In this document: positions 10,230 to 63,285 of the stretch, in pieces
How the letters are laid out: each line of letters begins with the position of its first letter
How positions within the stretch are numbered: position 1 is the stretch's first letter
Assembly: GCA_949299515.1 (NCBI GenBank)
Contig: CASGAP010000012.1
Span: 62,001-126,000 of the forward strand
Source of the DNA: an uncultured Desulfovibrionaceae bacterium
GTDB lineage: Bacteria; Desulfobacterota; Desulfovibrionia; Desulfovibrionales; Desulfovibrionaceae
DNA length: 64,000 nt
Direction of reading: 5' to 3'
The notes under the pieces: generated by a model
The model's input: the letters and a program-made list of their open reading frames with translations, nothing else
What the model was told of the DNA's origin: nothing
Database searches by the model: none
Program-made: the position numbers and the translations under genes

Positions 10230-10336
10230 GCATGGGGTATGTTTTCAAAATAACGGAACTGATTATAACAGTTATAACACCATTTAAAAAATTATTAAAA
10301 AAAGAAAATATTGAAAAAGATTTTTTTGTATCTTTA

Positions 10337-10495
10337 TTCGCGGCATTTACGTAACTGAAGCCGAAAAATTCGGCAGCGTTTCGTAAATGCCGGGCAATGA
10401 GGGCCGGGGGAGCCACCCAAAGGGCGACAAGTTATTTGCGTTAGTGAGCTTGCGAACCTTATGCAAATGGACAGCAACGCAATCATTTCCCCCGG
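10337..10495 (-). repeat. Dispersed structured repeat, copy A (long form, inverted)
   Basis: This non-coding element fills most of the 381-base gap 10157-10537. Read on the minus strand it starts CCGGGGGAAATGATT, continues with a module of about 60 bases containing small hairpins, then GGTGGCTCCCCCGG, CCCTCA, and a nested stem-loop with outer arms GGCATTTACG/CGTAAATGCC and inner arms GCCGAA/TTCGGC. It is clearly related, in inverse orientation, to copy C at 58284 and, lacking the module, to copies B and D. It lies between two convergent genes. No open reading frame of note is present. Confidence 0.85.
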
Positions 10496-10537
10496 AAAAT
10501 AATTTAAAAATATACTCTGAAAACCATAAACCGGCGG

Positions 10538-27892: not shown

Positions 27893-27920
27893 AAAAATCC
27901 TCTGCAAAGAGGATTTTTTT
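27893..27920 (+). terminator. Rho-independent terminator after lon
   Basis: AAAAATCCTCT pairs with AGAGGATTTTT around GCAA, followed by T residues. Confidence 0.93.
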
Positions 27921-27945
27921 ATATTATTTTAAATTATTTTTTTTT

Positions 27946-28037
27946 CTTGGGGGAAATGATTTCCCCCAAGCCCCCTCATTACACGGAATTTGCGGAACCT
28001 TGCCGAAGTTTTCGGCTTCGGTTCCGTAAATTCCGTG
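27946..28037 (+). repeat. Dispersed structured repeat, copy B1 (short form)
   Basis: Arm 1 is a near-perfect palindrome (27946-27970) with 12-base arms around a single G, core GGGGGAAATGATTTCCCCC. After CCCCTCA comes arm 2: CACGGAATTTGCGG (27982-27995) pairs with CCGTAAATTCCGTG (28024-28037), one G-T pair, enclosing GCCGAA/TTCGGC. The sequence is related to copies A, C and D. It lies in the convergent gap between lon and the asparaginase gene (27888-28262). Confidence 0.85.
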
Positions 28038-28098
28038 AATAAAAGCGACTTAAAAAATCTTTTTCCCAAGCCAAAACAAAGTTTATAACGATTTGTTT

Positions 28099-28209
28099 AT
28101 GTTGATATTTTTTATAATTGCTGTAATCTATGGTATTAATTCGGAAACATACCCTAAAGATAATCCTAAAGCCTCTGAAAAAGGCTGTATCAAATTAAAA
28201 ATTATATAG
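28099..28209 (+). CDS. Possible 36-residue membrane peptide (doubtful)
   Basis: This is a short open frame between the two repeat halves. It begins MLIFFIIAVIYGI, a hydrophobic stretch that could span a membrane, and continues with a hydrophilic charged tail (NSETYPKDNPKASEKGC). The stop is a TAG at 28207-28209, just before the inverted repeat B2. No clear SD precedes the ATG. The composition looks more protein-like than the surrounding AT-rich DNA, but frames of this length occur by chance. Confidence 0.2.
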   Translation: MLIFFIIAVIYGINSETYPKDNPKASEKGCIKLKII

Positions 28210-28212
28210 TAT

Positions 28213-28243
28213 GAGGGGGACTGGGGGAAATCATTTCCCCCGG
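28213..28243 (-). repeat. Dispersed structured repeat, partial inverted copy B2
   Basis: Read on the minus strand this contains CCGGGGGAAATGATTTCCCCC then AGTCCCCCTC, the same arm 1 and linker as copies B1 and D. Arm 2 is missing. With B1 it frames a 175-base segment in inverted orientation, similar to the ends of a small inverted-repeat element. Confidence 0.7.
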
Positions 28244-28262
28244 ATAAAAAATAAAAAAATTA

Positions 28263-58283: not shown

Positions 58284-58436
58284 CCGGGGGAAATGATTGC
58301 GTTGCTGATCATTTGCGTAAGGTTCGCAAGCTTACTAGCGCAAACGGTTTGCCGTCCTTTGGGTGGCTCCCCCGACCCCCTCACTGCCGGTATTTACGGT
58401 ACCTTGCCGTATTCTTCGGCTTCAGTTCCGTTTATT
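58284..58436 (+). repeat. Dispersed structured repeat, copy C (long form)
   Basis: This is in the 402-base gap 58180-58581. It starts CCGGGGGAAATGATT, carries the additional module with a nested hairpin (TTTGCG, TAAG ... CTTA, CGCAAA), then GGTGGCTCCCCCG, CCCCCTCA, and a decayed version of arm 2 (CCGGTATTTACGG; TTCGGC; TTCCGTTTATTTG). It is closely similar to copy A in the inverse orientation and shares both end motifs with B and D. It is the only copy between two genes in tandem. Confidence 0.85.
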
Positions 58437-58531
58437 TGTTTTATTCGGCATTATCCTCATTAACGACGGCAAATAATTCTCACTAAGGGAATTTAATATT
58501 AATTATATCATAGTGTCAGTTTAGTTTTATA

Positions 58532-62978: not shown

Positions 62979-63069
62979 CTGGGGGAAATGATTTCCCCCA
63001 GCCCCCCTCATTACGCGGTATTTGCGGAGCCTTGCCGAATTTTTCGGCTTCAGCCCCGTAAATACCGCG
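62979..63069 (+). repeat. Dispersed structured repeat, copy D (short form)
   Basis: This copy has the G5/C5 arm with core GGGGGAAATGATTTCCCCC, then CCCCCTCA and arm 2 CGCGGTATTTGCGG (63014-63027) paired with CCGTAAATACCGCG (63056-63069), with inner GCCGAA/TTCGGC. It is in the 514-base gap 62805-63318 between lipB and atpC. Other copies are listed as A, B1, B2 and C. Confidence 0.87.
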
Positions 63070-63285
63070 GATAAAAGTGACAAAAAAAATTTTTTATAAT
63101 TTGTTACAGCGGTTAAATAATAAAAATAACTTAAAAATACGCTCTTCTGGATCTGACAACTAATAAGAGTTATACATAGACTGAGGTAGAATAAGCGTTG
63201 TTGAAACAGCAAGAGATAATAAATTAGGAGGAAATTCCATCAACATATTTAAAAATTTTATTTTGCATTGTCAGGATAACAATAC
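63070..63285. other. Rest of the lipB-atpC gap: leader-like sequence without a gene
   Basis: Downstream of copy D the plus strand carries a CTGACA at 63157, AT-rich sequence and TAGGAGG at about 63224-63230 followed by ATC rather than a start codon. Nothing readable follows except into the opposite of atpC. It looks like a promoter and SD that have lost their gene, or chance. Confidence 0.25.

Follow-up and report, generated by a model that had tools for sequence, protein, structure and literature searches.

Dispersed hairpin repeats of a Desulfovibrionaceae genome are very probably IS5-type MITEs with stems derived in part from template switching

The hairpin repeat dispersed over intergenic sites of the window (the whole 64,000-nt stretch of DNA analysed) very probably belongs to a family of IS5-type MITEs in the genus that includes Mailhella, mobilized in trans by an IS5-family transposase and with stems that derive in part from template switching. 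The preliminary description had offered a mobile MITE-like element as one reading, which the analysis bore out: the element has TIRs with TA flanks, occurs in many dispersed intergenic copies including a nested insertion, and shares its TIRs with an IS of related genomes. In the mechanism we propose, an IS5-family transposase encoded by an IS with the same TIRs would move the non-coding elements in trans, the ~20-bp TIRs starting at a TA dinucleotide; template switching between the arms of the interior palindrome at replication would generate the paired stem differences, at least in part, and removal of insertions upstream of genes would leave copies mostly 3' of genes. MITEs that have an IS5 partner are already known. 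The occurrence of one hairpin cassette in differently ended repeats appears to be a variant that we did not find described in the open-access literature, and the repeat itself was not found described there either.

Limits and copies of the element

All four intergenic copies reported to share one architecture (A, B1, C and D) were located in the window with all their parts, and GGGGGAAAT occurs there 8 times against 0.73 expected. The span first given, 10337-10495, holds the structured core but falls short of the element's limits: when copies were aligned with their flanks, conservation extended far past it, up to TIRs (TAGGGTGTGTTTCCAAATTA at the 5' end, TAATTCRGAAACATACCCTA at the 3' end). 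From TIR to TIR, copy A is a complete long-form MITE of 287 bp (10233..10519, minus strand), with TA at both ends and TIRs (TAGGGTRTGTTTCYRAATTA) that are both decayed, by 3 and 4 substitutions from consensus. On the minus strand it comprises a decayed 5' TIR (CAGAGTATATTTTTAAATTA; 10500..10519), hairpin 1 (GGGGGAAAT ... CCCCC) with the ~80-nt inner segment of the long form (10404..10495), the CCCTCA linker with hairpin 2 (10334..10403; 86.5 bits with R1, a covariance model of hairpin 2) and a 3' TIR (TATTTTGAAAACATACCCCA on the element strand; 10233..10252). TATAAT-like motifs near the end of the element's 3' third (10233-10300 of the window, minus strand, and other copies too) are a possible outward promoter.

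In copies B1 and D the ~80-nt inner segment is absent, which makes them short forms. B1 (27914..28156, plus strand) has a decayed left end, placed approximately, and an intact right end with a perfect TIR (28137-28156); its linker and hairpin 2 lie at 27973..28042 (R1, 97.3 bits). A truncated fifth copy, B2 (28211..28245, minus strand), consists of hairpin 1 and the CCCCCTCAT linker only. On the plus strand, copy C has a long-form hairpin 1 (58284..58375) and a hairpin 2 (58378..58443) whose right arm is decayed (R1 37.8 bits; -16.1 kcal/mol), as its earlier characterization as partly decayed implied, and copy D has a short-form hairpin 1 (62979..63001) followed by linker and hairpin 2 (63005..63074; R1, 90.1 bits). 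The outer stems pair as had been stated, but the arms of B1 and D are not perfect: each contains one G.T wobble.

Searching the genome of the window (G000; 1.76 Mb, 16 contigs, 91% complete) with copy A retrieved 40 scored long-form copies, and copy B1 retrieved an additional set of short forms, again without the inner segment, that are ~92% identical to B1 and nearly identical among themselves. Model R1 gave 110 matches; because the hairpin-2 stem is palindromic, many sites are matched on both strands, and de-duplication left 66 distinct stem-2 loci. Further copies retain hairpin 1 only, which brings the total to some 70 copies or more. Intact young short-form copies measure 238-244 bp and complete long-form copies about 264-305 bp; the family is thus short (238-305 bp), non-coding and bounded by ~20-bp TIRs, with multiple dispersed copies, some near-identical. 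Five of the near-identical young short copies lie at the ends of contigs C14, C13, C5, C2 and C1, and the repeat therefore probably breaks the assembly; an IS5-type MITE family would account for a large class of repeats in this genome and probably for some of its assembly breaks.

The TIR pattern matched 25 times in G000, against 0-2 matches per strand for reversed-pattern controls; among TIR matches, the base outside the TA varies and the TA itself is almost constant. Intact copies, like the nested insertion, have TA at each end, a possible target-site duplication seen here at filled sites. The nested insertion is a short copy (C14:25389-25631) with TA on both sides; it interrupts an older long copy, the decayed 3' part of which resumes beyond it. 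A phage or plasmid origin was rejected, as neither collection gave a blastn match to the repeat; viral contigs did not contain the exact inner-segment pattern.

Partner IS and mobility

The same TIRs bound an IS of 832 bp in the complete genome of a relative, G002 (C1:1482195-1483026), and of 833 bp in G003 (C22:11831-12663), a 2.1-Mb genome of the same genus. The G002 IS holds IS5-family transposase fragments, apparently in two frames, that match DDE_Tnp_1 at 53 bits and NCBIfam NF033580 transpos_IS5_3 at 123 bits, above its cut-off; the G003 IS holds IS5-type transposase remnants. A third partner IS is present in G001; the related matches in G003 number 17 and include many fragments. TIRs common to the element and to this ~833-bp IS identify the element as an IS5-type MITE. 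The ends and TA flanks thus agree with those of the IS5-family IS (NF033580; Pfam DDE_Tnp_1), whereas the MITE has no transposase gene and its interior beyond the TIRs has no visible match to the IS. The IS copies of the relatives appear to carry frameshifts and may not be active. G000 itself yielded no transposase of the partner-IS kind, even at E 10. Mobilization in trans by an IS5-family transposase is therefore inferred from the relatives, and the source transposase would have been present earlier in the lineage and either lost from the genome or missing from the 91%-complete assembly.

In G003, the TIR core matched 159 times (controls, 0-2 per strand), and related MITEs with several different interiors are very strongly expanded there. 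The genus includes an uncultured Mailhella sp. assembly, CALUWZ01. Bacterial MITEs in general (reviewed in PMC10969869; MITEAba12, PMC6382973) are likewise short, non-coding, TIR-bounded, intergenic in many copies and paired with a partner IS; the present family differs from them in that its conserved hairpin cassette also occurs in unrelated-ended repeats of other genera.

Stem structure

A consensus-like hairpin 2 folds at -43.1 kcal/mol (z = -8.8 against shuffles), with an asymmetric internal loop adjoining a 6-bp inner stem in the consensus. Across 37 copies, 89% of cells pair and 70 cells are changed on both sides, compared with 30 in shuffles, none of which (0/500) equalled this count, and 10-13 in slid controls. 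The genome-wide search and covariance model that the preliminary description had called for thus returned 66 loci and two-sided changes far above slid controls (70 versus at most 13). Covariation beyond controls is expected of a selected RNA, and correction of one DNA arm by the other is an alternative source.

Marks of such correction are present. Scored by the longest uninterrupted Watson-Crick stem (loop of at most 12) in 60 copies, stems reach at most 6 bp in 54 copies and 8, 8, 14, 17, 22 and 27 bp in the remaining six. In these six palindromized copies, one arm has been rewritten as its partner's reverse complement, with either arm as the source, and the copy at C1:211557 has an inverted loop segment. 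Template switching yields arm homogenization and spacer inversion (PMC8604942), and hairpins can be created and maintained by it (PMC8794818); the palindromized stems and the inverted loop are template-switch signatures. We infer that template switching from one arm to the other produced at least part of the paired differences. The earlier reading that paired changes imply selection on structure does not hold as stated, because arm homogenization produces the same pattern. Our copies share arm homogenization, multi-base compensatory changes and spacer inversion with the cases in those two studies, which concerned RNA genes and yeast coding DNA, whereas here the changes are found in repeat copies of one bacterial genome. 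The copies form a natural data set for tracing arm-to-arm template switching in a bacterial genome, and their palindromized arms are a warning that paired changes in a stem need not mean an RNA function.

Stem loss was at most weakly related to the age of a copy (Spearman 0.26, p = 0.04 for energy; -0.16, p = 0.20 for pair number). In hairpin 1, one paired change separates related inner segments, TTTCCCT/AGGGAAA in G003 and TTTGCGT/ACGCAAA in G000. Loops of the form AAATCATTT were set aside as proof of hairpin-1 inversion, since a single central G to C gives the same letters. A stretch of G002 (L062:1400-1590) that lies among other short palindromes, outside any recognized MITE, is 92% identical over 48 nt to the long-form inner segment.

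Alternative explanations

Under one alternative, each locus would serve the host as a structured RNA or 3'-UTR element, its stems being kept by selection on transcripts. Two-sided changes well above controls fit this, as do the bias of copies towards 3' ends of genes, the conservation of the cassette in nine genera and a few copies without recognizable TIRs that keep very strong stems (-53 kcal/mol). Against it, G.U is not favoured over A.C on the element strand (G.T+T.G 33 versus A.C+C.A 49, p = 0.10), many copies have decayed to -10 to -20 kcal/mol, the sequence drift in the inner segment of hairpin 1 comes with next to no covariation term, and arm homogenization explains the palindromized copies. 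Rfam matched none of the copies: at gathering score it found only a tRNA in the window, and at relaxed thresholds the best sub-threshold matches to the repeat had E 2 or worse, so membership of a known Rfam family was rejected at both settings. The structured-RNA option raised at the outset gained no positive evidence, and we consider it improbable. We regard as unlikely, too, a transcription terminator or mRNA 3'-end protector spread by transposition. With genes called by a simple ORF caller, 24 copies in G000 lie between convergent genes, 21 between tandem and 6 between divergent genes; the excess of convergent over divergent sites (p = 0.0014, assuming both arrangements to be equally common genome-wide) speaks for such a role, as does the position of the cassette in other genera, often close behind a stop codon. 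Yet the U-tract of an intrinsic terminator is missing after both hairpins when the aligned copies inspected are read along the element strand, orientation relative to tandem genes is mixed (13 same, 8 opposite), and promoter avoidance alone yields the same bias. The mostly 3'-of-gene placement fits loss of insertions upstream of genes, with no function required. Another 10 copies fall inside called ORFs, most of them short and probably spurious; called ORFs of 92-111 aa spanning copies were taken as chance, and two copies lie within longer ORFs.

The preliminary description had also likened the repeat to REP elements. Moved by a RAYT (Y1) transposase, a REP/BIME element would be palindromic, dispersed and intergenic like the copies seen here, as are the repeats of REP/RAYT systems (PMC3733652), and Y1 transposases do occur in some relatives, for example G002 and G162. 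The search for a RAYT/IS200-like transposase that had been suggested returned no PF01797 match in G000, nor in G003, G186, G193, G172, G108, G067 or G134, which carry many copies, so that the domain is absent from most high-copy relatives; moreover, a REP would not be expected to have TA-flanked TIRs or an IS5 partner, and these set the element apart from REP/RAYT systems. We regard a REP/BIME element as highly improbable. The PF01797 matches of G002 and G162 (14 and 25, several with stop codons) are an independent IS200/RAYT-like expansion.

The hairpin cassette in other genera

One point against the IS5-type MITE explanation is that the hairpin cassette is conserved in other repeats of several genera, as would not be necessary if it were passive filler and nothing more. 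The cassette comprises G5-AAATGATTT-C5, a 3-nt spacer and C5TCA, followed by a long palindrome. Its exact pattern (GGGGAAATGATTTCCCC-N1..7-CCCCTCA) is present in 30 of 199 sampled Desulfovibrionaceae genomes, from 9 of 44 genera, with no match for the reversed control, and a loosened loop pattern still gave mostly AAATGATTT among the places listed. Among 297 sampled genomes of the phylum, only two cassette matches were found, both in Desulfovibrionaceae and none in other families. The TIR of the G000 genus does not explain this spread, because its few near matches outside the genus fall in genomes without the cassette pattern.

The surroundings of the cassette vary. In genus g20 (G108, G081), 7 of the 15 copies examined belong to elements of ~180-240 bp with ends of another kind, TTAGGGAAACGCTGATT ... 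AATCAGCGTTTCCTTAA, and in other genomes the cassette lies within GC-rich hairpin arrays starting with GCCTCCGGCGGCC. In many G003 copies hairpin 1 and the linker are unchanged to the letter, but stem 2 is GGCAAATTTATTGAAA...TTTCAATAAATTTGCC. Outside the genus, a long stem (score of at least 10) follows within 80 nt in 13 of 57 copies, compared with 1 of 55 control stretches 300 nt away; the strongest of these stems, in G034 and other g30 genomes, have arms unrelated to G000 or G003 sequence.

The simplest reading is that the cassette is a passenger moving between repeats by recombination or template switching. It could instead be a unit of its own, captured by unrelated Desulfovibrionaceae mini-transposons for an effect of its DNA or RNA structure, with hairpin 1 kept by sequence and hairpin 2 by shape only; we think this rather doubtful. 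Such a unit might, for example, recruit a replication or host factor or stabilize neighbouring mRNA, and whether the cassette is a passenger or a functional structure picked up by mini-transposons is a testable question. The cassette reaches 113 exact matches in G186, a g20 genome (1.5 Mb, 65% complete) in which it lies in a GCCTCCGGCGGCC-type hairpin array and no Y1 transposase was found.
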